Source: Porphyra umbilicalis
Taxonomy: Eukaryota > Rhodophyta > Bangiophyceae > Bangiales > Bangiaceae
Length of the DNA: 64,000 nt
Reading direction: 5' to 3'
NCBI GenBank assembly: GCA_002049455.2
Contig: KV918781.1
Location: 62,001 to 126,000, forward strand
Shown here one piece after another: positions 31,334 to 56,302 of this stretch; within the stretch, counting starts at the first letter, position 1; every line of letters begins with the position of its first letter. The notes under the pieces were generated by a model. The model searched no databases and was not told the origin of the DNA. It saw only the letters and a program-made list of their open reading frames with translations. Both the position numbers and the translations under genes were made by a program.

Positions 31334-31399
31334 ATATAAGATACGGAAGCCTGTTGCCCCGGCCTCGCACAGTCCTCCAGTGTCACGTACTGCGTCTCC

Positions 31400-31955
31400 G
31401 ACGCGAGCAGCAGCTCGGTCGCATCCGACCGCGTCGCCTCGGCGGCGACTCGCGACACGAGCATATTGTGCCGCACGTGCTGGCCGAGGGAGGGCACCTC
31501 CGTCGGCGCCAGGGTGCAGACGGCGATGGCAGCACCCCGACGCGAGCAGCAGCTCGGTCGCATCCGACCGCGTCGCCTCGGCGGCGGCTCGCGACACGAG
31601 CATATTGTGCCGCTCGTGCTGGCCGAGGGAGGGCACCTCCGTCGGCGCCAGGATGCAGACGGCGATGGCAGCACCCCGACGCGAGCAGCAGCTCGGTCGC
31701 ATCCGACCGCGTCGCCTCGGCGGCGGCTCGCGACACGAGCATATTGTGCCGCTCGTGCTGGCCAAGGGAGGGCACCTCCGTCGGCGCCAGGATGCAGACG
31801 GCGATGGCAGCACCCCGACGCGAGCAGCAGCTCGGTCGCATCCGACCGCGTCGCCTCGGCGGCGGCTCGCGACACGAGCATATTGTGCCGCTCGTGCTGG
31901 CCGAGGGAGGGCACCTCTGTCGGCGCCAGGGTGCAGACGGCGATGGCAGCACCGG
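31400..31955. repeat. 139-bp tandem repeat, 4 copies
   Basis: Units start at 31400, 31539, 31678 and 31817 with exactly 139-bp spacing and only a few substitutions (for example ggccgag/ggccaag). Because 139 = 3x46+1, each unit shifts the frame by one, yet no frame has a stop, so long ORFs run through on both strands. On the minus strand one frame of the unit reads LAPTEVPSLGQHERHNMLVS. That is the most protein-like frame and continues the broken ORF to its right. Confidence 0.95.
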
Positions 31956-34474: not shown

Positions 34475-35015
34475 AAGGAAGGCGACGACCGCCCTAGCTG
34501 CAGTCGTCCAGCGGGACGGGGAGTTTGAGGATGTGGGCGAGGATGAGCTCCTGCCGGTGGACTGGATGCCGGGTGAGGATGAGCCCGTGAAGGGGGGCCG
34601 TCGCTATCGGCTTGATGGGGTGCTTCTCGACAGTGACGACGACCCAGATGGTGAAGAGAACGCGACTATGGCCGGTGGGGACTTCCACGTGATGGGCGCT
34701 GACGAGGCTGGCTGCGGGGTCTCGTTGCTGAAGGCTGCGGTTGAAGACACTGCCATCGCGTCGGTGCTGCCGTCTGCGGATATCGTGGACGCTGTCCTGG
34801 GGGGGACCATCCCGTACGCGGCTGACGCATTGGGACGAGAGCATCTGTGTGACAAGCTGTCGGAGGACCTCATGATGCTGCAGTTGTTAATTGAGCGAGT
34901 GCGCGGGCCCGACTTTGTCGCGTGGGCCTGGAGGGATGGGGCTCTTTTGCGTGGCATTGCACGGGCCGCCGAGCGCCCCCGTCCCCATCTGCTTTGCAAG
35001 CTTATTGCTTGTTGA
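34323..35015 (+). CDS. Acidic protein with a polyalanine tract
   Basis: ATG 34323 opens 230 residues. The frame is also open upstream to 34251, where ESDEDDDDTADEV-like acidic codons follow a plausible acceptor AG. That suggests this is the 3' exon of a gene beginning in the previous ORF. A GCG/GGC trinucleotide run (about 34405-34473) encodes some 20 alanines. Downstream lie acidic GEFEDVGEDELLPVDWMPGE and a helical C-terminus (LSEDLMMLQLLIERVRG). Family unknown. Confidence 0.4.
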
Positions 35016-35489
35016 GGAGGCGGTGACGTCGCAATCGCTCGACTATTCTGCCGCGGCGAGCGGCAGCGCCAAGGCCGGCGGCGACGGCGGGGGCGGTGCC
35101 GGTGGCGGTGGCCAGGGGGGTGGGGGGGGAGTGCAAACGATGCCATGGTCGTAGAGGAAGACTGGCTTCCATCCCCCACATGCCGATGTGGAGTGCGCTG
35201 CGGCCGCGTTCCACCACGTCGTGTACAGCGCACTTCCGGTGCGTTGAGCCCGACGGCCGCGGCGGGGCATTCTTCATCGCGTTGAGACGCTTCAAACGCT
35301 GTAAAGCAATACACCCCCGTCCGCCCGGAAAGTTAATCCACATGAGCTTGAAGAAAAAATCGGACCTGATGACCACGCACAGGCCGATTTCAGATTCCAA
35401 TGTGGGTCCCCATTGCCAGCAATGACATTTACGTCCCACCCCCAGTGAAGAGCCACTGCGCTGGGGAAAGGGCAGGGTCAGCCCGAGGC

Positions 35490-35870
35490 CTCTGTGCGGC
35501 GCGGCCATGAGCATCGCCAGCACCTCGCGCAGCCGCAACACGTGCGCGTCGTGGCCCGCCACCGTCGCCCGCGGGAGCGGGGCGGGGAATTCGGGCTCGG
35601 GTACAGCGTCGCCCGTCTAGCCCCGCCGGCGGCGCTTTGGGGCTCCGCCCGACACTAGCCGGTCGGAGCGGGCGCGCTTGGCGCCCACGGGGCGCACCAG
35701 CGAGCCGCCTGCCTCGACAGGCAGGGGGGGGGGGTGGGCGCACGCGATTGGCGGCGCTCGCGGCGCTCGCAGGCGCCGCCGCCGCACGCGGGTGGGGCGG
35801 CAGCATGTGGCGGCGCACCACAACGAGCGACGCCACGGCGTCCTGCACGGCGGCATGCGCCGCGTCCCGC
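35490..35870 (-). pseudogene. Truncated duplicate of the ATAD2-like gene 5' part
   Basis: About 380 bp align base for base with 38510-38830. Shared features include the GHDAHVLRLREVLA-coding segment, the KRRRRG basic motif and the polyglycine/proline block. The copy stops before the Walker A motif and carries an in-frame stop on the minus strand (complement of the 'ctag' near 35619). Both copies have the same orientation, about 3 kb apart. Confidence 0.8.
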
Positions 35871-36760
35871 GCGCAGCGCCCACCACGAGACGTGCCGCGC
35901 GGCGACATGGTGCTGCAGACGGGGGGTCGACGGGCCAGCGCGGTCAAACGACAGGGCGGCCCCGTGCGCACCCGCGCAGCCGAGCGAGCCGCGCGCGCAT
36001 GCACGAGGGCGCCTCGGTGTGGTGGCGACGCCGTCGGCAGCGATCGTAGTCGCATCGACCAGTTCGTTTTTATACCCGCTGACAACCGGAAGGGCACCTT
36101 TCATTATTTAATCACGGATGTTTGTATAAATATTCCAGCCTGCGGATCTGGAATGACGTGGCACATGATTTTCTTATCTGAGAACTGATTGTGTGAAGAA
36201 CTCGTACAGACATTTGCTTGGGTGCTGTTTCCAACAGGACAACAGGAGCGCCCCGGCGGGAACGGAAAATACCCCCGACCACGCAAGGCTGTCCCGATGC
36301 GAGCCGTGATTTTCTTTTCCGGTGGGGATGAAATTAAGCCTTTATCAGTGCAGCCGACGCGATAGAGCGGCGACGCCTGTGCACACCCCCTGGCGCGGGC
36401 CCGGACGCGTGCAGCCAAGCGGGACAGACCACGCGACCGTTGGCAGCGGCGCTGTGTCGCCACACCGGGCGAGGCGTTGCCGGATTGTCGACATCTCGTT
36501 TGACAGTTCTTGCAAAAGAGGAATTACAAACACCCAAGACGTGGAAATCTCCCTTCACAGACGGTATACAGTGGTGTAAACATACGCGGGGATCCGTACA
36601 GTACCGGTATACTGTCACGTGACGACCTCGGCCAATCGCATCCACGTTACGTCGGCATACCGTGCCACGCGCACGGACCACCCACTCGCAGGAGCAATGG
36701 ACGGTCGACGCACGCCGCTCGGCTGCGGCGGTTTGTGGCTGCCACACCCCCCCCCCCACC
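35871..36760. other. No recognised gene
   Basis: GC-rich overlapping ORFs without domains lie near the duplicate. An AT-richer stretch at 36090-36340 has no ORF of note. Confidence 0.4.
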
Positions 36761-39101
36761 CTACATGTCGCAGCGGCGAACGGGATGGGTGCTGCGCTTG
36801 CCCCGCTCCGCTCGGGGTGTCGGCGCGGTCGACGCCTCGCCCGACGGTTGGACAGGCGTCTTGTCAGTCGCGGCTCGTGTGCCACGCGGCGCGCCAGACG
36901 CGTCACTGTCTATGGCGAGACCACGGGCGCCGCGGTCGCCTGCGAGGGGGCGGTCAGCGTTCGTGTCGCGGCTACTGGCGCGGTGCCCCACAGGTGCGGC
37001 AGCAGCCACACCGTCCGGTGCGTGCGAGGCCGACCGAGCGGCACGTGCGCCACCGAGGGACGTGCGGCCGCCGCTCTCAGACAGCTGGTCGATGGCCGCC
37101 AGCACCGTCACCACCCACGCGTCAATCCGGTGCGCCACAGGCGCTGCCTCGTGTACGCTCGCGAGGGCGTCGAGGAGCTGCTGAAAAATGCGCTCCATCT
37201 CGTCCACGGGTGCGTGCGTGAGATGCACGCCGTCCAACGCCACGTCCAACTTGGTGACGCGGGCACGGGCGACGCCCGTCTTGTGCTTGCGCACGACCGC
37301 CTTGAGCGCGTCGACGACCGGGCACCAGTACTGCCGCCGCCGCTGCTCCGACGCCCGGTCCATGTGCACGACCGTCGACCACGTCGGCGCCCACGCGTTC
37401 GTCACGTCCTCGGTCGCGTTGGCAATGCCGAGCACCAACACGGGCGTGGCACAGCACCGCAGCCCCACCAGCGACTGCCCCATGCCCGCATGCCCCGAAA
37501 TCAAAAGGCGGTGCGGGAGGAAAGGCCACGCGGCGAGCATGGTGGCGGCAGACGCACTGGACGTCGGCCCGCCCACGGCCTGGGCGGCCCACTCGGCGCC
37601 GGGGGTGGTCAGCTTGTCCCGTGGAAAGCGCGTGTCGAGGACCCCCACCACCCGCGACACGGTCGGTTCGAAAAGCGCGCTCAGGCGCAACGGCAGCGGC
37701 CGGTGCAGCGCCGGGGATACCCCCGCCCGGGCGGTGTGCGCTCGGAAGGCCAGCGCCACGTCCCAGTCCGCGTGCGTCACGTCTGGGAGCGGCGGCGGCG
37801 GCGCCCCCCCCCCCCCCCCCCTTCCCCTCCGCACCACCCCCGACTGTCGCCGGGTCTGTGGCGACGGTCGCCACCGCCTCGAGCCACTGCGGGTCGGTCC
37901 GGCGCCACGCGCAGCACACGGCTTCGGTGGCGAGGCCCCGGATTTCCGCTCCCGACCAGCCGTCTGTGCGTCGGACGACGAACGAGACCGCCGTCTTGTC
38001 TGCCAACGTGCCTGCGTGCGACTCCATCAGCCGCCGGCGGTCGGACGCGTCGGGCAGCTGAAAGTCGAGCTCGAAGTCAAACCGGCCCGGACGCCGAAAC
38101 GCCGAGTCCAATAGGTCCACCCGGTTGGTAGCGGCGCGGACCAACACGCGACCGCGCGAGCAAAAGCCGTCGAGCAAGGCGAGAAGGGTGTTAAAGACCC
38201 GCGAGTGGTCGCGGTTGTCGTCGCGCGTCGCCGCGAGGGCGTCAAATTGGTCGAAAAACAAGATGGACGGGGCCGCCGCGGTCGCAGCGTCAAACAGGCG
38301 GCGCAGGCGGCGCAGGCGGCGCTCGCCCTCGCCGACGTACTTGGAGAGGATTTCGCCGCCGCGGATGAGGTACAGAGGCATGGAGGCGCCACCATTGGCA
38401 GCCCGCGAGTGCGAGGCGAGCACCCGGACGCTCAGCGTCTTGCCCGTCCCGGGCGGACCGGTCAGCAGCACACCCGGGGGAAAGGGCAGGGGCCGCCCGA
38501 CACCTCCTCCGCACGGCGTGGCGGTGAGCAGCGCCAGCACCTCGCGCAGCCGCGACACGTGCGCGTCGTGGCCCGCCACCGTTGCCCACGGGAGCGGGGC
38601 GGGGGGCTCGGGCTCGGGAATAATACCCTTCTCGCCCCGCCGGCGGCGCTTGGTCGCCCCGCCCGACACTGACCGGACGGTGCGGGCGCGCTTGGCCCCG
38701 ACGGGGCGCACCGGCGAGCCACCTGCGGCGACGGGCGGGGGGGGGGGCACGCGGTTGGCGGCGCTCGCAGCACTCGCCGGCGGCAGGGTGTGGCGGCGCC
38801 CGTCCAAGAGCGACGCCACGCCGTGCAGCCGCGCGGTGGCAGACTCCTCGTCTGTCTCTCGGGCGACGGGGCCGCTTGGGCCACGACGTGTGCGGGTGTG
38901 TGGCCGCAGGGGACGTGCGGCTGCCCAGTGACGACGGGACGCAGCTGCCGCCCACGAACGCGCACGGGACGGGCCCGGACACGGTCGACAGTCTACCGCG
39001 TCACAAGAAGGCGCCTGCCGGTGCGGTTTACCACTACGATACCACCACCACACAGCCACGTGCGTGTAGAGTGGGGATGTGTGTGGGATATACGCCTGCA
39101 T
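36761..39101 (-). CDS. ATAD2/Yta7-like AAA ATPase, frame broken at a C17 tract
   Basis: Residues count from ATG 39101; the true start is uncertain. Near residue 155 a basic KRRRRGEKG resembles a nuclear signal. Next come WATVAGHDAHVSRLREVLAL, Walker A GPPGTGKT (about 215), RGGEILSKYVGEGERRLRRL, SILFFDQFDALA (Walker B, about 284), sensor ATNRVDLLD and RRPGRFD. The ILSKYVGE and FFD..D.LA signatures point to ATAD2/Yta7, nuclear chromatin AAA proteins. At 37804-37820 a run of 17 C's breaks the frame. The second frame continues to 36761 with a degenerate AAA2 (HRLLISGHAGMGQS, as the GEPGFGQG site of ATAD2). The usual Walker B Glu is Gln (codon CAA). No bromodomain is seen. It may be a real gene with an assembly indel, or a decaying one. 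Confidence 0.75.
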
Positions 39102-40090
39102 GTGTGCACCTCGGAGAGGAGGTGCGAGCTTAAGCTCGGCCGACCTGGATCAAGGGTTGGGCGCGCGGTTTGAACACACACGCGTCTGTCAACGTGCTTG
39201 GGGCGTGCCAGGGCCCCGCTCAGCAGCGCGCGTCGGCGCCACAGGCGTCGGTCAAATGTGGACATGCTGTCTATCGCAGCCGCTCGCCCGGCGTGCGTGG
39301 CGCCCCGTTTGCATACACGCTCGTGTGTGTGTCAGTCTTTCGACGCTCTCTACGCTTGCGCGGCGCGCCGTATGAACCGTCTGGCATTGCCGACCTGTCT
39401 GAGGCCTGTATCGTCCCACAGCGCCATGCCGTGAGACCTGTCTGTCATGTTGCTCGACCCGCCGGCAATCGTACCGGCGCCTGTAAAAACGACGCCGGCC
39501 GGTTCACATGGGCGGCCCCGGTACGCTCAACGGAGCGCGTCATTGCGACGCCCCCCGCCGCCGCGCGTGACGGCGGCGCGGGGCGTCTCGTGCGCGCCGC
39601 CCCTCTCTTGATGAGCGCGGCTGCAGCCGCACGCCCCCTGCTGCCCCCCTGCTCCACCCCGGCCGGCAGACGGTGTCACCCGCCGTTGTGCCCCCCACCT
39701 GTACGGTGCGCGGTACGTTGGGGTATTGCCCACCTGGGTGACAGTGCCCGTACGCCTCTGGGGCACGCGACACACCCTGGTGTGTGGGGGTTTGTTCGAC
39801 AGGGCCCCACTCCCCGCGTCTCTAATGCGGCGGGTGTCGGCGGGCACGCCCGTGCTCGCCGGAACGACGCCATGCGGGTGGACGCACCCCCGTCCGTCGC
39901 AAGCAGCGAACATTCGCGTCGCGCGGCTGATACCGGCGCCGGTGCGTGCGGCACCGTCGCGCTGGGGGGCATTGGGGCGACACCCGGCGGCGACGCAGAC
40001 GACTTGTCGTCTACAGACGAGGAGGAGGCGCCCGGCACATTGACGGCGCTGTGAGCGCGTCGCGGCCGCACCACGGCGCGGCGGTCGGCC
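39102..40090. other. No recognised gene
   Basis: GC-rich ORFs are open on both strands and none has a domain. It separates the minus-strand ATPase from the plus-strand Fanzor region, so promoters for both may lie here, but none can be pointed to. Confidence 0.4.
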
Positions 40091-41140
40091 ATGATGGCGG
40101 GCGGTGGTGCTGGCAGCGGCAATGGCGCACGGGCGGGTGTGGCAGACGGCAACGGGCCCGCGAGTGGGGGCACCGCTGGCGGCGGCGCACGGGCCGTGGC
40201 CGCGACCACCAGAGTCGGTGCCGCGGGCGGTCCCGGCGACGACGCTCGTGCCTCGGCGAATGGCGGCGACCACGGCGGTCTGCTCCCACGGGTGGGGGGG
40301 GGTGCCCCCGACACCCGCCCACAAGCAATGGGGGGTGTCCCCGCGCGCCTTGCACGGTCGGCGAGTGTCCCAAGCGGCCCCCGTGTGCCCGGCGGGGTGC
40401 CCCCCCCGTCAGCAGCAGTGACCGACCCCGCCCCACAGACAGCTGGTGGGAGCGGCGGTGGGGACGGCGGGGGCGGGGACGGCCCCGTCGACGGAACCGT
40501 CGACAAGGACCTCGACCGTGACGACGCCGTCACGCGTCTGGGTGCGACCGGCGGGGACGCGGCCATCAAGGCTGGCGGCCACGTAGACGCCGCGCGACAA
40601 TGTGCCGCATCTGCCGTGCGGTCCGCGACGGTCGAAGTCGCCGCCGCCGCCTTCGCGTGCGAGGCGGCCGGCAACGTGGGGCCGGTAGGCCCCTTGCGAG
40701 ACGCGAGCACCCGGCTGGCCAAGCTGCTCGCAGCAAACCCCGTGCACGCGCGGGGCACTACGTCGTACGCGTCGGCAGCGCTGGGCGACGCCGAGTCGGC
40801 CTCGACCGCAGTGCTGCGAGCCGTCGACGCGGTGACCGTGCCGTCGCACCGACCACCCGCTGCTGTCCCTGGGGACGGCGGCGCGGCAGACGCTGCCGCC
40901 GGCGCTGCGACAGGTGCCAACAATGCCGCGGTGGTCGCCTGTCGGCGCCTGCGCGCGCGCGCCCGGCACGCCGCAAGCAGCGTCCTGTCCGCGGCCAAGG
41001 GCTTGATACCCATGGCAACTTCGACGCGGGGGACCAGCCGGGCGACGACGCGGGTGCCGGCGCTGGGGGCGCGCCGGCGAGCGGCGGCGGCGGCACGCGT
41101 GGCCGCCTGCGCCGATGCGGCGGCTGCGGGACAACTGTGA
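40091..41140 (+). CDS. Ala/Gly-rich ORF upstream of Fanzor
   Basis: ATG 40091 opens 349 codons to TGA 41140. The first half is Gly/Ala/Pro low complexity. The second half is an Ala-rich helical sequence with scattered cysteines (VDAARQCAASAVRSATVEVA, ARHAASSVLSAAKGLIP). A 533-codon ORF covers the opposite strand. The plus frame is preferred because it shares composition with the Ala-rich helices of the Fanzor ORF downstream. No family is recognised, and it could be non-coding. Confidence 0.3.
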   Translation: MMAGGGAGSGNGARAGVADGNGPASGGTAGGGARAVAATTRVGAAGGPGDDARASANGGDHGGLLPRVGGGAPDTRPQAMGGVPARLARSASVPSGPRVPGGVPPPSAAVTDPAPQTAGGSGGGDGGGGDGPVDGTVDKDLDRDDAVTRLGATGGDAAIKAGGHVDAARQCAASAVRSATVEVAAAAFACEAAGNVGPVGPLRDASTRLAKLLAANPVHARGTTSYASAALGDAESASTAVLRAVDAVTVPSHRPPAAVPGDGGAADAAAGAATGANNAAVVACRRLRARARHAASSVLSAAKGLIPMATSTRGTSRATTRVPALGARRRAAAAARVAACADAAAAGQL

Positions 41141-41269
41141 CGGTCCGTCACCTCGCCCCCACACTCGGGGAACCAGATTCCCCGGAAATATGCCCCACGA
41201 ACGCATATTTCAAATTGTTCCGTTGGCGACCCACTTGTGATCACCTCGTGGCCCACCAACCACAACCGC

Positions 41270-41292
41270 AATCCCAATACTTCCTTGGGATT
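41270..41292 (+). other. 8-bp perfect hairpin upstream of Fanzor
   Basis: AATCCCAA (41270-41277) pairs with TTGGGATT (41285-41292) around the 7-nt loop TACTTCC. It sits in a 300-bp AT-richer segment between the Ala-rich ORF and the Fanzor frame. It might belong to the left end of a mobile unit, which is speculative. Confidence 0.5.
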
Positions 41293-41504
41293 CGTAACCC
41301 CCCGAGCGGGCCCCTGCTTAAGGGCCTAATTGTGTGTAAACCCAACTTGGATTATCGACTTATGTTACTTTACGCCCTTGACCCCGGGGCGCCGCGAGGG
41401 TGTCACGTAGCACCCTTCCCCCGCCTCTACTCAAGGCGGTATTCGAAGTTTCGGCCGTCCTCCGGGTTATGGGCCCAGTGGGCGCTGAGGGGAGGGTTCT
41501 CCGT

Positions 41505-41625
41505 GGGTCCTTTGAGGGTGTCTGAGGAGGGTTTTCTGAGGGTCCTTTGAGGGTGTTTGAGGAGGTTTTTCCGAGGGTCCTTTGAGGGTGTCTGAGGAGG
41601 GTTTTCCGAGGGTCCGAGGGGAACG
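41505..41625. repeat. 35-bp tandem repeat, about 3.3 units
   Basis: Units beginning GGGTCCTTTGAGGGTGT(C/T)T follow one another at 35-bp spacing, ending with a partial GGGTCCGAGGG. The repeat lies just before the open frame of the Fanzor N-terminal segment. Confidence 0.9.
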
Positions 41626-41646
41626 GATGGGATAAGAGGGTGAGGC

Positions 41647-43449
41647 GTGAGTGTCGCCTCGAGGCCTTCGACGCGGGCAAGTAAACTTCCGGTCACACAA
41701 CTCGTGTTTGTCGCTCGGGGCGCCTTTCCCAGGTCGACGCCGTGCGTGTCTGCTCTTCGTGGTTTCCTTTCGGGGTGGGTATTCCCCGACAGGACTACCC
41801 GGCGACACGGTTTGGCTCGCCCTCCCCCCAACTGCGTGGCGTGGGCTGAGCGTGTTGTTTCAACAACGGGGCACAATGTGCGGACGTGTCCAGCCGACGC
41901 AGCCGCCAAGGTTGCGCACACGGCGCGCGTGGCGGCGGCCCGGGCGACCAAGGGCGCCGCGGCCGGCAGCGACCGTAACAGGTGCGGTGCCTGCCACGCG
42001 CGGGGCCACACGCGCGCAAGCGCAGCGTGTCCGCTGCGTGCCGTCACCCACGGCTGGTCGGGCCACAATGAGGACCGTGGCCGCGACTTGGCGTGCGCCG
42101 ACCAGTACCGCATGACGGGGGAGGTGACGACGACGGTGGCCGTGTCGGTCGACCGGTTTTTTGGCGTCTGGCGGCGGAGCCTCCTGCGGCCGCCCACAGA
42201 CTGTGCGCCGCCAGCGGGACGCCGGCCGACCACCTCGGCTCATCGCAAGACCGAGGCGTCTGTCGAGGCCGTCACCAATGCGGCGGCGGGCGCGGCTGCG
42301 CTGACAGAGTTGGAAACGGCGCAGGCGCAGCAGTTGCGCCTCGTCTTCATTGTCATGGACGGCACGATGCGGTACCTGCTCGAGCGCGTCGACGGTGGTG
42401 GCGGCGGGCTGGGTGCGGGTGGTGGTGGCGGCGGCCGACGCACGCTCGACGAGTTTATGGCGGCCGTGCCGGCGTTGCTGACGGGCAGCTACGGGCTTGC
42501 CTGGAAGGAGGTCGCTTCGACAGTCTCTTGCTGCGGTGTCCACGCGTTTGGCGGCGCCCCCCGGCGGGCGTGTGCGTCGTGCTCGGGGCGGCGCGCAAAC
42601 GTCAAGCAACGTGGAGATGACAAGGCAGCAACCGGTGACGGCGATTACACCGCCTCTGTGGCCGCGTCGGTGGCAGTGGCGGCGGCCGTCACCGAGCCAG
42701 AGCAGCTGCCGTGCAGCACGCTGCTGCCGAGTCCGGCCGACACGGGCGGCTGGGCGACCGTCACAACGTCCGTTGAAAACCTCTATGTGACGTACGTCAC
42801 GTCGGCGGTCAAGGCTATTGCAAAGTGGATCGTCCTCGCGGTCTACCCGCAGACCCCGGGCGTGTCAGACGGGCACCCCCACGCGGCACTGGTCGACGCG
42901 CTTGTGTGCGGCCTGCACGCTGCCGACGGCAGCCGCCCGCCGATGGTAGGGTGGCCGGCGGGCACGCCTGCAGCGGAAGGGCAAGACATGGCGGCCGCCG
43001 CGACGCTGGCCTACGACAGCGTCCTCGTGTACACGGATTGCGGCGGTCGGCGGCGCTCGCTGCTGCACCTAAACACGTTGGCCCTGCGACAGCGGCCACT
43101 GCACGTCTACCCGTTGCTGCACTATGCCCAGGCCCTGTGCGTCGGCGCCGGCATCAAGGCGGCCGACACGTCACCCCGCCGAGTCGCTCCGTGCACCACG
43201 TACGCGCGCGTCAGCGGCATGCTTCTCCGTCGGCGTCTGCCGGTTCACGGGGGGTCCATCCCACCACAGACGGCCGACGGTTCGGTCGTGAAGGCGTTGC
43301 TCCGCCGCGCGGGCATCATCGGCGCCTCGACGCTCGTTGGCCCCTCCATCGTGTCGGACGGCCGCCGGCGCGCACTTTACGATACGACACCCCGCCACTG
43401 CCGCGCCGACGGCGGCCGCTCGGCGGGCGCGCCGCAGGGCGGCCAGTGA
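41647..43449 (+). CDS. Fanzor N-terminal segment
   Basis: A 600-codon open frame opens at GTG 41647; the true start is not resolved. It holds a zinc-knuckle-like CGACHARGHTRASAAC near residue 120. Further on come VENLYVTYVTSAVKAIAKWI, HVYPLLHYAQALCVGAGIKA and TADGSVVKALL, which resemble the 'slxPl' and 'TDGvsv' blocks that precede RuvC-I in long Fanzor proteins. It lies directly upstream of, and in the same orientation as, the RuvC segments. On its own the assignment is weaker than for those segments. It ends at TGA 43447, ahead of a G11 run. Confidence 0.55.
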   Translation: MSVASRPSTRASKLPVTQLVFVARGAFPRSTPCVSALRGFLSGWVFPDRTTRRHGLARPPPNCVAWAERVVSTTGHNVRTCPADAAAKVAHTARVAAARATKGAAAGSDRNRCGACHARGHTRASAACPLRAVTHGWSGHNEDRGRDLACADQYRMTGEVTTTVAVSVDRFFGVWRRSLLRPPTDCAPPAGRRPTTSAHRKTEASVEAVTNAAAGAAALTELETAQAQQLRLVFIVMDGTMRYLLERVDGGGGGLGAGGGGGGRRTLDEFMAAVPALLTGSYGLAWKEVASTVSCCGVHAFGGAPRRACASCSGRRANVKQRGDDKAATGDGDYTASVAASVAVAAAVTEPEQLPCSTLLPSPADTGGWATVTTSVENLYVTYVTSAVKAIAKWIVLAVYPQTPGVSDGHPHAALVDALVCGLHAADGSRPPMVGWPAGTPAAEGQDMAAAATLAYDSVLVYTDCGGRRRSLLHLNTLALRQRPLHVYPLLHYAQALCVGAGIKAADTSPRRVAPCTTYARVSGMLLRRRLPVHGGSIPPQTADGSVVKALLRRAGIIGASTLVGPSIVSDGRRRALYDTTPRHCRADGGRSAGAPQGGQ

Positions 43450-43747
43450 CGGTCGCGGGGGGGGGGGTCCGACCAAGACGGCGAGCGTGCGTACGCAGCT
43501 CGACCGAATGGCGTTTGCGCCCGATATTGTCAAGGCGCTCGTCTTTGTCGGGTGGGACCCGGGGGTCGCGTTCATCGTCGCTGCCTACTGCCCCGGCGCA
43601 ATGCCGTTTGAGCTCTCAACGGCACCGCACCTGCACGCGTACCGGGCGTATCGGGCGCTGCGGCTTGCAGCCGACGTGCTCGCGCGGGCGGCCATGGCCG
43701 CGACCGCAGCTGCAGAAGTCACGTGCGGCGCAGCGGTCGATTACTGA
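43450..43747 (+). CDS. Fanzor RuvC-I segment
   Basis: In the next frame the sequence QLDRMAFAPDIVKALVFVGW is followed by DPGVAFIVAAYCPG. Hydrophobic residues leading into DPG are the signature of the first RuvC catalytic aspartate in TnpB and Fanzor nucleases; here Asp is GAC 43556-43558. The frame closes at TGA 43745-43747. It is joined to neighbours only by a change of frame. Confidence 0.7.
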
Positions 43748-44210
43748 CGACCGTCGACACGCTGCGTGCAACAGTAGCCCAGATTGTTCGTGCGGCCAAG
43801 GTCACCGCGGCGGACCTACCCATCGGCGGCGGTGACGCGGTGTGCGGGATGACCAAAAAGCGCGGCCGTGGCGCGCTCGGCGCGTCGACCGGGGCGGAGG
43901 GGTCTCCCCCAAAGCAGAGGCGTGGAGCTTTGGTGGGCCCGGCCACACCGGCGGCGCAGGCGTCTTTGCCGCCTTTGGAGCACGCACCGACGGAGCCGGC
44001 CGCTGCGCTGGACCCCGCCCCCCCCCTGACCCGCCGAAGCCGCCGCGGTACACGCAGCCGGCATACGGCGACGCGTGGCTGACGCCCGTGCAGCGGCAAG
44101 AGGTCGCCCGCAAGCGGGGGACGAGCGGCCCCGACGGTCGGCGGCCACTTCTGACGCGCCTGCGCGCGCTCGCACACGCCGCGGTCAACGACGGCGGCGT
44201 CCAACCGTGA
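43723..44210 (+). CDS. Fanzor linker segments between RuvC-I and RuvC-II
   Basis: Protein-like sequence continues as GRLLTTVDTLRATVAQIVRA in one frame (from about 43730). It then moves to the frame of the downstream segment near the C9 run at 44018-44026, reading PPRYTQPAYGDAWLTPVQRQ and LLTRLRALAHAAVNDGG. This frame stops at TGA 44208, and a second TGA follows at 44235, three bases before the ATG of the next segment. Either small introns or real damage separates them. GT and AG dinucleotides exist, but I cannot choose a splice pair. Confidence 0.5.
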
Positions 44211-44237
44211 CGCCTCCCCAACCACGTGTGTGTGTGA

Positions 44238-45944
44238 ATGGGCGAGGCGGCCCTGTTCAAGGCGTCGACCGACGCGGCCGCCGACGCAGGCGCCAAGGCC
44301 GAGGCGGCGGCCAACGCAGAGGCGGCGTGGTACGCCCTGTCGGTCGGGGATCACCGACACGCTTCGCGCGTGTGTCACAGCGCGGCGCGCACCGCGAAAC
44401 AGGCGGCGGCGGCAGCGCGCAACGCAAAGCGCGCGGCGGCTGCGGCCGCCGCCGCTGCGCCGACAGAGCCCCCGCAGCATGGTGCGCCTGGCACGCCGCT
44501 TCCGTCGGCAGACCGCCTACGGGTGCTGTGTGCCACCCTTCGGCGTGCGGCCACGACCACGAGACCGCGCGCGCGCGCTCCGCCGGCGGGGGCGACGCTG
44601 GTCGTCTCCAAGGGGGCGTACCGCGAGGCGACGGGCGCCGGTATGACCAGGCGCGCCGAGGCGGCAGCGGCGGCGGCGTGGGCGGCGACCATTCCCGACG
44701 TGTCGCACGAGTCAATGACGGCTGGGTGCTCCTTCAAAGTCGCTTCGTGGGGCGCGTGGCTGGTTGCGGCCACTGCGCGCATCGGCCGCGCCTACACAGA
44801 CGCCTATCAGGCGGCGTACGGGGCGGCCGCGACGTACGGTCAACGCAAGGCGCGGCTACGCGCCGTCATCCAGCGCAACCGGTACGCGGCGGTTATGGCG
44901 CGCCGCTGGACGGGTGGGCTCCTGCGGCGCACGGTGGACGGTACCAAGGCGGTGTTGGCGATTGGGCGGTGTCTGCCGCGCGCCGGCAGCGTCGACCTCG
45001 TGCGGCGCATGGCCAAACACGTGCACCTCGTGTACGTTGACGAGCACATTACGAGCCAGACGTGTGCAGAGTGCGGCCACGGCTTGTGCAACACGTACGT
45101 GTCGGCCGACTCGCCGGTGGACCTGAAGCCCCTCAAAGCGGCAAGCACTTACGCGCATCGCGCGTCGGCGTCGGCGGCCAAGCGCGCCTCGCCCCTTCGC
45201 GGCGGCCGGCGCGCGCGACGGGGTGTGGCGACCGGTAGTCGGTCGGGCCCACGCGACGGTGCGGCTGTCCAGCGCGCCAAGGAGCACGCAGAGGCGGTGC
45301 GGACAAAGGTGCTGCAGGCGATTGCGGCTCACGGCAGGTGGGCGTTTGGGACCGACCCGCTCGCGCTGTGGGGGGTCAAGCTGTGCACCAACGTCGCGTG
45401 TCCCGCGACGTACGTCGGGCGAGACACCAACGCGGCGCGCAACATGTCCAAGATTGCCATCAAGAGCATGCAGGGTCAGAGCATCTACCCCCACATCAGG
45501 GGGTACACCGTGTCGCGCGCGCCACCCCAGGAAGACCTGGTCCAGGCGACATGGCACGCGGCTGCGATCGAGGCGGGTACCTACGAGGCCGGCTACGGGT
45601 GGACGCGCTGTTCACCCACGTCGTGGGAGCGTTGGCGCCGACCTGTCGTCACCGACCCGGCGGTCGTGGAGGCTGGGACGACGCCGGCGGTCGCGGAGGC
45701 CGAGACGGCCCCCACGGCCGTGCCAGTGGCGGCGCCAACGGTGCGGGTAGAGGCGCTGGGTGTGGTCGCAGACGGGGCGCACGACGCAGCTGCTGCGTCG
45801 ACAAGCGGTGACCTGGCGACAAGTAACGTCGGCCAGATGGCTGCTGCCAGCCCCGCGCCAGCCGTGGGGCACAGCCACTCGTCTTCGAGCCGCCTCGAGC
45901 GGGTAATCGTAGACTGTTCACCAGGCTCATCTCGTGGGGTGTGA
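44238..45944 (+). CDS. Fanzor nuclease, C-terminal RuvC-II/zinc finger/RuvC-III
   Basis: A 568-aa frame from ATG 44238. Fanzors are eukaryotic RNA-guided DNA endonucleases related to TnpB. An Ala-rich helical part is followed by WLVAATARIGRAYTDAYQAA and QRKARLRAVIQRN. Then comes VLAIGRCLPRAGSVDLVRRM and VYVDEHITSQTCAECGHG, where Glu269 (GAG 45042) sits in the rearranged Fanzor position just before the first zinc pair CAEC. The second pair is CTNVAC, directly followed by GRDTNAARNMSKI with Asp396 (GAC 45423) of RuvC-III. The tail after residue 440 is Ala/Thr-rich and probably disordered. All motifs of the catalytic half are intact. Confidence 0.85.
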   Translation: MGEAALFKASTDAAADAGAKAEAAANAEAAWYALSVGDHRHASRVCHSAARTAKQAAAAARNAKRAAAAAAAAAPTEPPQHGAPGTPLPSADRLRVLCATLRRAATTTRPRARAPPAGATLVVSKGAYREATGAGMTRRAEAAAAAAWAATIPDVSHESMTAGCSFKVASWGAWLVAATARIGRAYTDAYQAAYGAAATYGQRKARLRAVIQRNRYAAVMARRWTGGLLRRTVDGTKAVLAIGRCLPRAGSVDLVRRMAKHVHLVYVDEHITSQTCAECGHGLCNTYVSADSPVDLKPLKAASTYAHRASASAAKRASPLRGGRRARRGVATGSRSGPRDGAAVQRAKEHAEAVRTKVLQAIAAHGRWAFGTDPLALWGVKLCTNVACPATYVGRDTNAARNMSKIAIKSMQGQSIYPHIRGYTVSRAPPQEDLVQATWHAAAIEAGTYEAGYGWTRCSPTSWERWRRPVVTDPAVVEAGTTPAVAEAETAPTAVPVAAPTVRVEALGVVADGAHDAAAASTSGDLATSNVGQMAAASPAPAVGHSHSSSSRLERVIVDCSPGSSRGV

Positions 45945-46000
45945 ATAGGGAGCTTCGCTCCTCACCTCTTCCAGAGGTGACTACTGGTATGATACCGTGA
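45945..46000 (+). ncRNA. Hairpin cluster after Fanzor, candidate guide-RNA scaffold
   Basis: Four bases after the Fanzor stop three stem-loops follow in a row. These are GGAGC-TTC-GCTCC (45949-45961), TCACCTCT-TCC-AGAGGTGA (45962-45980, an 8-bp perfect stem), and GGTA-TGA-TACC (45985-45995). Fanzor and TnpB guide RNAs are made from the 3' end of the gene and the adjoining transposon end, so position and structure fit. No homologous sequence was compared, and the hairpins could instead be recombination or termination signals. Confidence 0.5.
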
Positions 46001-46010
46001 TTTCCCGCGA

Positions 46011-46188: not shown

Positions 46189-47317
46189 TATGGTGCCTGT
46201 CCCAAAATTCCCGGCACGTACGTGCAATACCCTGACCTTCAGGGCGGTGGCGCGCTCGGCGACGCATTGACACCGGGCACGCCGGCCGGCTCTATGGCCG
46301 CGAGCGCGCACGGGGGCACGTACAGTCACGTTGCCGTGGTGGGGGGGGCGTCGGGCGGGGAAAGAGGTGCCGCCTCCGCCACGGCATCGGCGGCGGCCCG
46401 CCGGCGTCGCGTGGAGCCCACGGGCGAGGCCGTCACTCCGCCGCACAGCGCACCTGCGCACGGCGGCCAGGGTGGCCGACACGGCGCACGGGCGGGCGGG
46501 TGGGACTGATCGCCGCGCGACGCGGCGCCTGTAACCGAACCGCTAGATGGCGTCAGAAACCGCCGACGCGCCGCCGCAACAGAAAACGGCGCGCAGGCAC
46601 GATCACCCGCGGGTCATCGTGGGCGCGTCAGGCCCCGGAAGTCGCTGCGCGCGGTCACCGCGCTTAACTCGGGGCGGTAGAGGGGGCACGGGGGCAGGCG
46701 CCGTCCGGGCCCAGTGACCCCTGTGGCAGGACAGTCCTTTTCAGCCACGTAACTCCATTCGCTTTTAGCGTCATCGCGACCCTTCCAACACTGACACGCC
46801 CTCAGATTCCTGAGGACACGAATGCAGACTGCCACCTCTAAAACGGAGAGCAAGTCCCTTGATCTGAGTATATGTGTGCATCACTACACTTTGAGAGCAC
46901 TCTGTCCTAAAGGCCAGGGAAATGAGACATGGCGGTTGTTTCTGTTTTTCTCTGCCCACTGGCCTTCTGCAACGGTCCGCTGATGTAATGTGACCCACTC
47001 GGTCCCACTGTGCTTCCGGCAAGACCCCTGACAGTGCTAGCAGAGGCGGCACCTCCTGACGTGTCATGGGGAACAGTGTCTTTCGTTGCAGCTTCGACAG
47101 GTGACGGTCACGCGCCCCAATCAAATGCACGGATACTAGAGCAGGCATGTGCTGACAATTTGTGCACCAAAAAATGGGCACCACCTTACCAATAAAACGT
47201 AAAAAAGACCCGCATGTAGTCCCCTGTGAGGAGAACACGATTTGGGACCCCCCTCATCGAAGCTCCAGTTAGCACATGAGCTTTGGCGTTGCAAACCTTT
47301 AACCCCAAGAACCTGAA
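46189..47317. mobile_element. Family D element, copy 3, split by family A copies 4 and 5
   Basis: TATGGTGCCTGTCCCAAAA (46189-46207) is the D terminus. Family A copy 4 follows, and D resumes ATGAGACATGGCGG at 46922. It is collinear with D copy 1 until ACCTGAA at 47317, where family A copy 5 starts. The distal D terminus is missing, so this stack is truncated on the right. Confidence 0.85.
46208..46921 (+). mobile_element. Family A element, copy 4, inside a D terminus
   Basis: A full-length copy of 714 bp (TTCCCGGCACGTACG ... GGCCAGGGAA). Joining the flanks TGTCCCAAAA and ATGAGACATGG restores the intact D terminus TGTCCCAAAAATGAGACATGG seen at 24438 and 29113, with no extra base. Confidence 0.9.
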
Positions 47318-47878
47318 TTCCAGGCACGTGCGTGCAATACCCTGGCCTTCAGGGCGGTGGCGCGCTCGGCGACGCATCGACACCGGACACGCCGGCCGGT
47401 TTCATAGCCTCGAGCGCGCACGGGGGCACGTACAGTCACGTTGCCGTAGCGGGGGGCGCGTGGGGCGGGGAGAGGGGTGCCGCCGCCGCCACCGCAGCGG
47501 CGGCGGCCCGCCGGCGTCGCGCGACACCCACGGGAGGGGCCGTCGCTCCACCGCGCAGCGCACCTGCGCACGGCCGACACGGCGCACGGGCGGGCGGATG
47601 GGATCGACCACCGCGCGACGGTGCGCCTCTAACCGCACCGGTAGATGGCGTCAACAACCTCCGACGCGCCGCCGCCACAGAAGCCGGCGCGCAGGCACGA
47701 TCACCCGCGGGTCATCGTGGGCGCTTCAATTCCCGGACGTCGGTCGCCGCGCGCAACCCGGGGCGGTGGGGGGGGGCAGTGGGGCAGGCGCCCTGTGACC
47801 CCTGTGGCAGGACAGTCCTTCTGAGCCACAATACTCTATTCGCTTTTAGCGTCATCGCGACCCTTCCAACGCTGACAC
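47318..47878 (+). mobile_element. Family A element, copy 5, right-truncated
   Basis: It starts TTCCAGGCACGTGCG after ACCTGAA of D copy 3 and follows the family until GCTGACACGC at about 47878. There it diverges into unrelated sequence, losing the AT-richer tail. Confidence 0.85.
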
Positions 47879-49097
47879 GCTTTCAGGGTCATTTCAAGCA
47901 ACTCAATCCTTCGTAACATCGAGTTCGCGACGTCACGTGTGACGGCTCTGTCCAATCAAACGCGTGCATCCCGCGTCGCAAACTCGGCGATGTTACGTTG
48001 TGGCTCGGGGAGGAATCGGGTCGAGCCACCACATCGTCACCTCGTCACACAATGTGACGGACTTGCACACTTGCTACTTAGGGCCTTGAGCGGCGGCGAC
48101 AATGTTGCTTCCCAAGCTAGCAACATTATCACCACAACCAGTGCAACATTGTCGCCGCCTCGCGGCACCTCGGCCTCCGGGCCGACGCGACGCGCTACCC
48201 CGCTGTTTACGGGTTGACATGCAGCCCCCCCTCGTGCTACCTGAGCAGCTTTCTATGCGTGGCTGTTCGCGCCCTTGTTCTCGTTCGTCGCTAGGCGATG
48301 GCGCTCCTCTTTACTGCGCAACTGCCGGGCATCCGAGCAGCCGAGACATGTCTTCTCCTGCCCGCGCCCGCGCTACCTGAAGACGGAAGTGCCGCGCGCA
48401 GGCGCAACGATTGTTCCCACCTCCCTGTCTGTGGTTCAGGTTGCTGCTGGAAGGGGGTATATTGGCGTGCCGGTGCGCAAGTGGGGGGGGGGGGGAGGGG
48501 TTGGCGTGTGGCGCTCTGAAGCAGTCGGGGGGGGAAGAGCGGCAGTCAAAGCGACAGGAAAGCGTGCGTGGTGGGCTGATTTGCCCTGCTGCAGCTCTTT
48601 TTGAACGGTCGCGCCCAGCGGGTGCTGGCAGAGAAGCAGCGACACTGCCCACTGCCACTCACCTCCGGAGCGGCAGCCGCCCACACCACACTTCTCTAGT
48701 GCCCCGCCATTTACGAACCTCCTCTACGGGACAACGGCACCCTCCCACATGGCCTCATGTCGTTCATGCGCATCGCTCGGGCAGAGCAGTCGCCGTAGCT
48801 GATGCGCACAGCGCATGAAGACGCCAGGTGAGTCGCTGAGGGGAAGCGGTATGAGCCGAGCACCCCGCTGGTGCAGGTGTAGACGGCGGCCGCGGAATGG
48901 CTGACAGCCAGCTGATCGTGCGCATCGTGCCAACACGACATGGCTGGATGGGTGGGTGCAGCAGGGGCGGATAAAAGCGTGAGTGGGTGCGCGAGGAGGC
49001 TTTGGGGACGAGTGTAGGTGGGTTTCAAGAGCGATGGTCGAGGCGCTCTTCGCCAAACGAACCCCGCTGGTGCAGGTGTAGACGGCGGCCGCGGAAT
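47879..49097. other. No recognised gene; two small repeat structures
   Basis: A 17-bp inverted repeat (48092-48108 and 48143-48159, GGCGGCGACAATGTTGC and complement) encloses a 34-nt loop. A 37-bp direct repeat starting CCCCGCTGGTGCAGGTGTAG occurs at 48863 and 49062. A G-rich tract lies at 48480-48540. ORFs here have no domain. Confidence 0.55.
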
Positions 49098-49133
49098 GCA
49101 CTTTGAGAGCACCCTGTCCTAAAGGCCAGGGAA
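49098..49133 (+). mobile_element. Family A tail fragment
   Basis: The 36 bp cactttgagagcaccctgtc...ccagggaa equal the very end of family A. It directly follows the second copy of the 37-bp direct repeat. Confidence 0.75.
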
Positions 49134-49378
49134 AAGACTTTTCCCGTGGTTACCACTTAGTGGTGTGCGTTTCCAGGTCGTCAAGGCAGCTAAATCTGAA
49201 ATGAAATGTAACATGCAAAATGCAAGCGCCTTGTTACAGTCTTTCTCCAATGCTGTCCACCCTCTATGGCGATCGTATGACCAGAAAGTAGCCCGCACTT
49301 TTCGTGCAGAAAACGAGGATCGGGAGCCACGATCGCCGTTGATTGTACCGTAGAGGCCGGTCGACCGCGTTCGTTGCG

Positions 49379-50497
49379 ATTGCTGATCCCCGAATTTTGT
49401 CCTGGTGGACAGAGACTGACTTGCGGACCGACTCTCTCCACCAATCAGATGCGCCCCTGGGACTGACTTCGTGCTCCTGATTGCTTATTACAGGCACGTG
49501 CGTGCAATACCCTGGCCTTCAGGGCGGTGGCGCGCTCGGCGACGCATCGACACAGGGCACGCCGGCCGGCTCCATAGCCGCGAGTGCGCACGGGGGCACG
49601 TACAGCGCCATGCTACCGTGGCGGGGAGAATGTGCGGCGGGGAAAGGGGTGCCGCCGCCGCCACCGCAGCGCCGGCGGCCCGCCGGCGTCGCGCGACACC
49701 TACAGGAGGGGCTGTCACTCCGCCGCGCAGCGCACCAGTGCACGGCGGGCAGGGCGGCCGACACGGCGCACGGGCGGGCGGGTGGGACTGATTGCCGCGC
49801 GATGGGGCGCCTCCAACCGCGCCGCTAGGTGGCGTCAGCAACCGCCGACGCGCCGCCGCAACAGAAGACGGCGCGCAGGCACGATCACCCGCGGGTCATC
49901 GTGGGTGCTTCGAACCCCGGAAGTCGCTGCGCGCGGTCGCCGCGCGCAACTCGGGGCGGTGGGGGGGGGCAGAGGGGCAGACGCCGTCCGGCCCCTGTGA
50001 CCCTTGTGGCAGGAGAGTCCTTCACAGCCACGTAACTCTATTCGCTTTTTAGCGTCATCGCGACCCTTCCAACGCTGACACGCTCTCAGATCCCTGAGGA
50101 CACGAATGCAGACTGCCACCTCTGAAACGGAGATCAAGTTCCGATATCTAAGTATATGTGTGCATCACTACACTTTGAGAGCACCCTGTCCTAAAGGCCA
50201 GGGAACATGTGCCCATACAGCCTGGAAACCAACATCAGCTCCTCTTTTTTTCTGCACTTCTGGCAAGGAGACAGTAAAAAATCTCCGGATCTCGCGTGGG
50301 CAGCTTGCTCCGTACCAAGAAAATCGGATCAAGCGGCAACAAACAGTGAGTTCCGCTGGATGCAAGGTCCTGGTACCGAATGCGGGCTTTTTATTGGCTT
50401 CGATTCCTTCTTACTGTCGTTTTAAACCAATAGAGTGCTCTTATTGACAGTCAGTCTCTGTCTCTGTCCCCCATGACAAAATTCGGGGATCAGCAGT
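49379..50497. mobile_element. Family B element, copy 2, split by family A copy 6
   Basis: The left terminus ATTGCTGATCCCCGAATTTT and the right terminus complement (ggggatcagcagt at 50485-50497) bracket sequence collinear with B copy 1. Removing A copy 6 leaves about 401 bp, the same length as copy 1. Confidence 0.85.
49488..50205 (+). mobile_element. Family A element, copy 6, inside B copy 2
   Basis: A full-length copy of 718 bp with a variant first base block (TTACAGG). The flanks GATTGCTTA and CATGTGCCCAT joined align without gap to GGTTGCTGACATGAGCCAAT in B copy 1. Confidence 0.9.
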
Positions 50498-55117: not shown

Positions 55118-56302
55118 AACAGCCAAACGTGGCACCGATTGGCCAACGGGGGCATTGGTGGAGAAAGCGAGGTCCAAAACTAAACATTAGTGTGTGACGG
55201 TGGTGAGACGGCCCAAAAATAGCACTCCTCACATTTTCTATTCTCTTAATGCATCTCGTGGTGGCCTCGCGGGATCGCCCTTCTTTTGGATGTTAAACGG
55301 CAGCGCCACTCCAAACAGGCCTGTTTCGAGACGCCCCGAGTCGTTTGGCAAACCCCTGGTTCCCTGTTCGGACCACGAAAGCCAATGGAAAGCGTGACCC
55401 GTGGCATGCAGACAGTCTCGAGACGATCTGGCAGTCATGGAGATTCTCTGTAGTGCATCTGTGGGGATACTGGCGTGCCACAAAAGAGGCCCACCGCCAG
55501 AGAAGTCCAGGCGAGCCCAAGTTTGAGACGTGATCTGCTTAATTTTGGCTCTTCCTTTGGAGAGCCAGTGACAGCGCCACACGTTGCGCACACGTGGCCG
55601 TTGGGTTGGACGGTTGGCTCCATTGGTGGAGATGCTCTGAGGTGCCAAGTGCTCGAGACTTAATGGGAGGGAGTGCTGCCACATGTGCACGACGGTGCAA
55701 GGCTCTCGAAAGGTTAGAGAACTCGAGTGCGCCGGTCCCCTCCTCAGACACATTCAAGGCCGGTGGCCTCAAAACCCTGAGAGCATCTCCACCAATGGAG
55801 CCAACCGTCCAACCCGACGGCCACGTGTGCACAACGTGTGGTGCTGTCACTGGCTCTCCAAACGCAGAGCTAAAACTAAGCAGATCACGTCTCAAGCTTG
55901 GGCTCGTCTCGACGTCTCTGGCGGTGGACCTCTTTTGTGGCACGCCAGTATTCCCACAGATGCACTACAGAGAATCTCCATGACTGCCAGATCGTCTCGC
56001 AACTGTCTGCAAACCACGGGTCACGCTTTCCATTGGCTTTTGTGGTTCGAACAGGGAACCAGGGGTTGGCCAAACGACTCGGGGCGTCTCCAAACAGGCC
56101 TGTTTGGAGTGGCGCTGCCGTTCAAGCTCCAAAAGAAGGGCGATCCCGCGAGGCCACCACGAGATGCACTAAGGGATTAGAAAATGTGAACCGGTCTATT
56201 TTTGGGCCGTCACAGCCCCGTCACACCCTAGTTTTGGAGAGGATCCCAGCCACCAGTGCTCCAACCGGCCAAACGGCCAAACGGTGCCACGTTTTGCTGT
56301 TT
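55118..56302. repeat. 1.2-kb near-palindrome with arms of about 520 bp
   Basis: The left arm 55118-55640 and right arm 55778-56302 are inverted copies, with scattered substitutions and small gaps, around a spacer of about 137 bp. For example ATTGGTGGAGATGCTCT at 55621 mirrors AGAGCATCTCCACCAAT at 55780, and ctcgtggtggcctcgcggga at 55255 mirrors its complement ending at 56163. The same short ORFs recur in both arms on opposite strands. No transposase. It looks like a foldback-type element, or a head-to-head duplication of a 0.5-kb unit. Confidence 0.9.

Follow-up and report, generated by a model that had tools for sequence, protein, structure and literature searches.

Does the Fanzor-like reading frame in this 64,000-nucleotide stretch of DNA belong to a working RNA-guided nuclease, and what kind of genetic unit carries it? 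The stretch, hereafter the window, is G000:C21:62001-126000 of an assembly comprising 83.8 Mb in 665 contigs. A preliminary description had placed a nuclease gene at 41647..45944 and assigned it to an algal-type genome. An algal-type host is indeed likely, since the chlorophyll-binding/light-harvesting family PF00504 gave 10 match rows in the host genome. Fanzors are the eukaryotic relatives of CRISPR nucleases, and the locus is probably the defunct remnant of a giant Fanzor1-like gene that has diverged strongly and resides in a one-ended mobile element of this genome. The multicopy one-ended element carrying the gene was not anticipated by the preliminary description.

The Fanzor gene and its copies

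The best preserved part of the locus is a C-terminal open frame of 568 amino acids (44238..45944, + strand), which comprises an Ala-rich stretch, a RuvC-II strand, a zinc ribbon, RuvC-III and a tail. Searching the genome with this frame (77 of 120 candidates scored) yielded at least 85 match rows, and the whole query was spanned by 36 of them, namely the window itself, 34 rows at 77-92% identity and one at 39%. Two protein searches for distant relatives, with about 8,000 candidates scored in each, returned 12 matches (69-93% identical) and 3 matches, all of them close metagenome members of the same family; Ala-rich words may displace distant candidates in such searches. A frame bearing the RuvC-III motif was present in 19 of the 20 fetched copies scanned. 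Two copies are open, L011 with a stop-free frame of 1921 amino acids (1,824 from the first ATG) and L026 with one of 1660 (1,636 from the first ATG), while L012 features a frame of 1458 amino acids. Relative to L011, one frame-shifting insertion was counted in L026, yet the latter is open on its own. The Fanzor frame is thus intronless over 5.7 kb, and the very large Ala-rich protein supposed earlier does exist in these copies.

Both open copies encode CCHC zinc knuckles, SDG, DPG, a Glu six residues ahead of the zinc finger, and RD; the single N-terminal knuckle suspected before turned out to be a pair. The catalytic residues are highly conserved among the 21 aligned copies, for which the window row was taken without its nested insertion: the Asp of DPG is kept in all but one of the 20 readable copies, the exception having Phe, and the alternative Glu and the Asp of RD in 21/21 each. 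The zinc-ribbon cysteines are retained in 20, 21, 20 and 21 of 21 copies. The C, C, H and C of the first knuckle are found in 17/17 at each position, and those of the second in 16/17, 17/17, 16/16 and 17/17, with Gly replacing the first Cys in L011. Upstream of DPG, at the position of the WED motif, SDG stands in 17 of 18 readable copies and TDG in one, SDG being a conservative variant of the TDG that forms the Fanzor1 WED motif (PMC10711439).

These residues point to Fanzor. Its molecular fingerprint was described as DPG together with an alternative Glu six residues ahead of the finger, the canonical Glu, about 50 residues ahead of the finger, being absent (Yoon et al., 2023, PMC10711439). 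The earlier proposal of a Fanzor with an alternative Glu by the zinc finger agrees with this fingerprint, and in L026, L011 and L012 no other Glu lies within 110 residues ahead of the alternative one. All elements of the published Fanzor motif D-X(125,275)-[TS][TS]-X-X-[C4 finger]-X(5,50)-RD (PMC3627910) occur here in order, but the first spacing, 497-500 residues, is beyond the range of 125-275 and the finger halves are 103 residues apart. In a joint alignment of 8 family members with 17 Fanzor1 proteins, V-x-E-x2-TS-x2-C-x2-C and RD-x-N are invariant, that is V, E, TS, four Cys, RD and N. The C-terminal frame matched the zinc-ribbon family PF07282 of Pfam with an E-value of 2.7e-5, at 24.7 bits against a gathering score of 26.3, and PHROGs and NCBIfam gave weak matches to transposase, unknown or TnpB families. 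Among the PDB Fanzor chains, there was no direct sequence match to the family.

A Fanzor1 hidden Markov model (HMM) was built from 23 proteins, namely the IMG/VR Fanzor1 L061, whose PDB relatives are PsFz1, SpuFz1 and GtFz1 (the Fanzor1 proteins of Parasitella, Spizellomyces and Guillardia), and 22 of its 120 listed homologues. It scored L026 at 8.3, L012 at 7.7 and L011 at 6.6 bits, each match falling into two colinear segments (in L026, of 4.6 and 1.4 bits), compared with 301 shuffled or reversed controls, 27 of which gave a match with a best score of 0.6 bits. On these grounds, the family would be a strongly diverged, giant Fanzor nearest to Fanzor1, assigned without a tree, and RNA-guided activity is predicted for it.

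Selection on the frame is visible in the comparison of the two subfamilies A and B, between which change is highest at third codon positions. The ratio of nonsynonymous to synonymous substitution rates (dN/dS) amounts to 0.35 for L011-L026 and 0.33 for L011-L025 over 3720 sites of codons 345-1600, and to 0.48 for L011-L022 over 1302 sites. Judged from these substitution patterns, the Fanzor frame is under purifying selection. Beyond codon 1600 (about window position 44979), divergence falls sharply and the similarity between A and B equals that within a subfamily; therefore, the 3' kilobase (44979-45988) was probably exchanged between the subfamilies.

The window copy is a dead relic of this gene. 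It spans 38821..45988 (+ strand), has lost its left part and adjoins another repeat at 38820; its limits are accordingly wider than those given before. The N-terminal part of the frame (39440..41135, + strand, frame 2) is Gly/Ala/Pro-rich and corresponds to the first part of the 1921-residue frame of L011, with a stop ending at 40054. It is followed by a nested, solo-LTR-like (LTR, long terminal repeat) insertion of 727 bp, TGTGA...TTTCA (41136..41862), which interrupts the first CCHC knuckle between two ACAAC copies (41131..41135 and 41863..41867) forming a 5-bp target duplication. This insertion, with its TG..CA ends and 5-bp duplication, is missing from 16/16 fetched copies spanning the site and is most simply taken as a solo LTR. 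The start at 41647 proposed earlier falls inside it, so that the first 219 bp of the frame then described are LTR-like sequence.

The second CCHC zinc knuckle, CGACHARGHTRASAACP, lies at 41983..42033 (+ strand, frame 1) and matched Pfam zf-CCHC_6 with an E-value of 0.0029, under the gathering score. SDG, at the place of the Fanzor1 TDG, is encoded at 43354..43362 (+ strand), and the window frame diverges from the other copies directly after it. RuvC-I follows as WDPG (43553..43564, + strand, frame 2) with the catalytic Asp at 43556. In frame 3 of the same strand, VDEHITSQTCAEC (45036-45074) unites the alternative catalytic Glu (45042..45044), six residues ahead of the first zinc-finger Cys, with the first half of the finger; the zinc ribbon CAEC ... 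CTNVAC extends over 45063..45401, its second half CTNVAC occupying 45384-45401, and the RuvC-III motif GRDTNAARN (45417-45443) contains the catalytic Asp at 45423..45425. The motifs DPG, VDEHITSQTCAEC, CTNVAC and GRDTNAARN were hence all located in the order, on the strand and at the bases first reported. Nevertheless, the view of a working nuclease fails for this copy, which compared with the open L011 frame carries three in-frame stops, five frameshifting indels and one nested insertion. Introns had been suspected at 43400-44300 and were ruled out, because L011, L026 and L012 read through uninterrupted in one frame; the frame changes are indels. Long spurious open frames occur on both strands of the window.

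A probable one-ended mobile element

The gene belongs to an element whose 3' end is fixed and whose 5' ends are variable, in other words a one-ended mobile element. In 18 of the 20 fetched copies, homology to the window ends at 45988 (to 45994 through chance matches); in L014 and L028, it already stops at 45964. The 3' flanks diverge among copies from the first bases beyond this end. When up to three mismatches were allowed, the last 35 bp were located 63 times in the genome (43 identical, 17 with one mismatch, two with two and one with three), compared with 0 for a control pattern. The copies are 3'-anchored and often 5'-truncated, down to 35 bp. Overlapping the stop codon, the 3' tail (45868..45988, + strand) is a candidate omega-RNA scaffold or terminal recognition site; its predicted hairpins at 45949-45961 and 45962-45980 lie within a 4-bp closing helix (45909-45912/45981-45984), and the fold has a z-score of -2.19.

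Target duplications were sought in 16 fetched short copies. In six of them (L032, L037, L042, L044, L045 and L046), exactly the terminal 121 bp belong to the element and foreign sequence precedes them; a partner element with a common tail was considered for this junction and ruled out, as the foreign sequence is an inserted LINE-like element (LINE, long interspersed nuclear element). Among the other ten, uninterrupted copies, direct duplications were found in six: 13 bp in L031, 11 in L033, 10 in L035, 13 in L036, 17 in L038 and 7 in L041, with 134 bp between the duplication and the element part in L035. Swapped flank pairs (n=90) never exceeded 6 bp. TTAT stands directly ahead of five duplications and TGAT ahead of that of L036; in total, the short-copy flanks contain TTAT at 6 of their 1882 positions, including those five.

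The true 5' ends of the element were not found in the fetched sequence. The A1 copies L011 and L020 align with the window from 38819-38821 onwards (BLAST of the window versus fetched copies) and have their own sequence before it, the A2 copies (L012, L015, L017, L018, L019 and others) depart from the window sequence at 39440, and the B copies L023-L028 at 40508. Both the 39440 boundary and position 7856 of L014 were rejected as 5' ends, the latter as seven loci share sequence beyond it, and with them a full-length two-ended element was dismissed; in the loci on C88, C25 and C272, the common sequence extends up to 4 kb further. The A2 copies on C272 and C25 have at least 15 kb in common up to the 3' end, satellites not counted, including frames for a leucine-rich repeat (LRR) protein and an Ulp1-like protease, whereas beyond that end their flanks diverge immediately. 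Since several loci share these upstream frames and the sequence onwards to the 3' end of the Fanzor copy, they and the Fanzor perhaps constitute one giant mobile unit.

The frames observed upstream of A2 copies are L059 813-1817 and L060 706-1794, 2060-4525 and 3787-6390 (all - strand). They encode an LRR protein, a C48 protease of Ulp1-like type (21.9 bits against a cut-off of 20.7) and two large unassigned proteins, and are accompanied by satellites. Another, dissimilar LRR frame precedes the A1 copy on C8. The LINE-like element, about 8.2 kb long and in opposite orientation, interrupts the 3' tail in a number of Fanzor copies (L028, L042, L047, L062) with an apparent 97-bp target duplication (target window 45868-45964), clearest on C38, and it repeats at a spacing of about 8.2 kb on C288, C55, C144, C354, C504 and C283. 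It looks like a site-specific retrotransposon targeting the Fanzor element. Its frames contain C2H2-like fingers and what are taken, by eye, to be reverse transcriptase motifs. As Pfam and PDB searches of these frames found no reverse transcriptase, this reading rests on the motifs recognized by eye.

The surroundings of the window copy are rich in further repeats. To the left, 35000-38820 is a multicopy repeat, mostly 90-96% identical elsewhere, and many of its copies end at 38820, where the Fanzor copy begins; a frame for an AAA ATPase (37122-39146, - strand) goes with it. To the right, 46207-50205 holds three related dispersed repeat copies (46207-46921, 47317-47886 and 49487-50205), which also occur beside the Fanzor copies L009, L021 and L025. 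Farther away, there are an inverted repeat at 55419-55999 (224-nt arms, 94% complementary, 133 nt apart) and a tandem repeat of four 139-bp units, 98% matching, at 31398-31953.

Mechanism and alternatives

How such an element spreads may be pictured as follows. The 3' tail would be transcribed as omega RNA with the flanking DNA as guide, in line with the report that Fanzor RNA carries a guide from the flank at its end (PMC10432273); for the window copy, the candidate guide would be the right flank at 45989..46008 (+ strand). The empty site would be TTAT followed by the right flank, which is why TTAT may act as the target-adjacent motif. By cutting empty sites or alleles, the Fanzor would help the element to be retained or copied. 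The minimal activity of SpuFz1 with a 10-nt guide and its plateau near 13 (Saito et al., 2023, PMC10432273) suggest that the left duplication of 7-17 nt could itself lie near the threshold of self-targeting. The inserting enzyme would probably act in trans, with Helitrons as the precedent and target-primed reverse transcription as the main rival. A bolder version makes the Fanzor the target-choosing nuclease of a new one-ended mobility with TTAT as its target-adjacent motif, where its RNA-guided, staggered cut at sites of TTAT plus guide receives the element, copied in by a reverse transcriptase or replicase that some other element provides, and where the CCHC knuckles hold the element RNA; this version appears improbable.

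Among the conceivable routes of insertion, a non-autonomous Helitron2 with one-ended rolling-circle transposition, as proposed for the Chlamydomonas elements CRe-1/2/3, comes close to an even chance. It would account for the terminal hairpins at the 3' end, which are expected of a Helitron2, for the matching pattern of truncation, duplication and tetranucleotide and for the large upstream sequence carried along, and the genome contains 28 Helitron_like_N match rows. However, none of these 28 rows lies on C88, C272, C25, C31, C232 or C345, the contigs of the long A2-type copies, and the fetched sequence, which falls short of the true 5' ends, showed neither a Helitron 5' end nor an asymmetric inverted repeat or a shared terminus, the ends of the Helitrons themselves not having been read. 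Insertion of element RNA as a non-autonomous retroposon, with a LINE enzyme supplied in trans for target-primed reverse transcription, is rather unlikely in comparison. The 3' anchoring with truncation down to 35 bp, the variable duplications of 7-17 bp with a fixed motif at the 5' boundary, the intronless 5.7-kb frame and the 134 extra bp after one 5' duplication would all suit it. Still, the tail consists of neither poly-A nor a simple repeat, the shared 15 kb or more of A2-type copies is long for a reverse transcript, and the CRe elements of the same pattern have introns (PMC3627910). Besides, no reverse transcriptase family was recognized in the 1921- and 1660-residue frames or in those tested upstream of A1 and A2 copies. 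A reverse-transcriptase partner was also rejected, as none of the RVT_1 matches (150 of 847 candidates scored) was seen inside a Fanzor frame or in the 10 kb preceding one. The closest such match on the downstream side, C50:141710, is about 5 kb away from a Fanzor frame, and the closest on the upstream side, C15:157088, is 14 kb away.

The remaining doubts concern the protein. Large insertions in the core, the weak profile similarity and the low-confidence structure predictions would fit a Fanzor core that is no longer a nuclease and has become a scaffold, its C-terminal motifs being kept for DNA or RNA binding in transposition; with the catalytic triad intact in 19/20, 21/21 and 21/21 readable copies for Asp, Glu and Asp, this is improbable. 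A mere chance resemblance in GC-rich, Ala-rich open frames, such as the long spurious frames on both strands and the Pfam match under the gathering score might evoke, has next to no probability in view of dN/dS, the codon-position bias, the HMM controls and the motifs invariant across 25 aligned proteins.

A number of observations weigh against a mobile, diverged Fanzor1-like gene. The profile similarity to Fanzor1 is weak: the HMM gave up to 8.3 bits versus a control best of 0.6, but hhalign aligned the RD segment only (E 0.0024, probability 12%). The distance from DPG to Glu, 492-495 residues versus 165 in L061, lies outside the published motifs; the finger halves are 103 residues apart in the open copies versus 29 in L061, and the second half is CxxxxC. 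Two AlphaFold predictions had a mean predicted local distance difference test (pLDDT) of 30.1 and 34.6, too low to show the RuvC/WED/REC fold with kinked REC2 helices that characterizes Fanzor1. In the last 141 codons, dN/dS rises to 0.69-1.45, so the protein tail is not clearly constrained there. No compensatory changes were seen in the RNA tail, whose paired sites are about as variable as the unpaired ones. Concerning mobility, the 7-bp duplication of L041 is barely above the control maximum of 6 bp (L039 has an exact 7-bp match as well, which was left out of the six), and four of the ten short copies are without duplication, L034, L040 and L043 showing none above control level. The 19 longer copies showed no duplication, many of their 5' ends lying outside the fetched sequence. 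Neither a transposase nor a reverse transcriptase or Rep/helicase was detected in the parts searched.

Comparison with known systems

The motif RD-x-N belongs to RuvC-III of the TnpB and Cas12f families, and the motif TS-x2-C-x2-C is likewise shared by this family, TnpB (guided_TnpB, NF040570) and Cas12f (9nzo). Unlike TnpB, this family is without Glu at the canonical place; two open copies scored 11-13 bits with NF040570 against a cut-off of 100, and the window frame gave no match. Cas12f (9nzo) further differs by VDP, where this family has VDE. The solved Fanzor1 proteins of Spizellomyces, Parasitella and Guillardia are closer, as compared via L061 and its homologues: DPG, the Glu six residues before CxxC and RD-x-N are common to both. 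The differences are TDG there versus SDG here, the N-terminal CCHC knuckles of this family, and a size of about 1,640-1,820 amino acids compared with 638 for SpuFz1 (PMC10432273). The family illustrates how far insertions and added N-terminal domains can stretch a Fanzor core that retains its catalytic residues.

With regard to mobility, the closest counterparts are CRe-1/2/3 of Chlamydomonas reinhardtii, in which Fanzor1 resides in non-autonomous Helitron2 elements with 5' truncation, intact 3' ends, duplications of 7-19 bp after TTTT and sometimes extra sequence (Bao and Jurka, 2013, PMC3627910). In the mainly openly accessible literature, no further case of this one-ended duplication pattern of a Fanzor was found, and PMC6338049 mentions Fanzor only for DNA transposons in the part available. 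In CRe, the tetranucleotide is TTTT instead of TTAT, the genes have five to ten exons instead of one intronless frame, and Helitron ends were shown, which were not found here. The likeness, as far as the pattern is described, includes the Fanzor gene itself, the 5' truncation and intact 3' ends, the variable duplications directly after a fixed tetranucleotide (about 7-19 bp in CRe versus 7-17 bp here) and the extra sequence past some 5' duplications. Whether Fanzor causes the duplications at truncated CRe elements was left open by Bao and Jurka (in the part of PMC3627910 available). The present family, very divergent and with another tetranucleotide, adds a case of the pattern and makes this question testable, as the mechanism outlined above predicts TTAT as target-adjacent motif and cleavage of empty sites. 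The window locus is thus an ordinary relic of an unusual family, which is a further example of one-ended Fanzor mobility, and the element appears to behave much as described before for the Chlamydomonas Fanzor elements.

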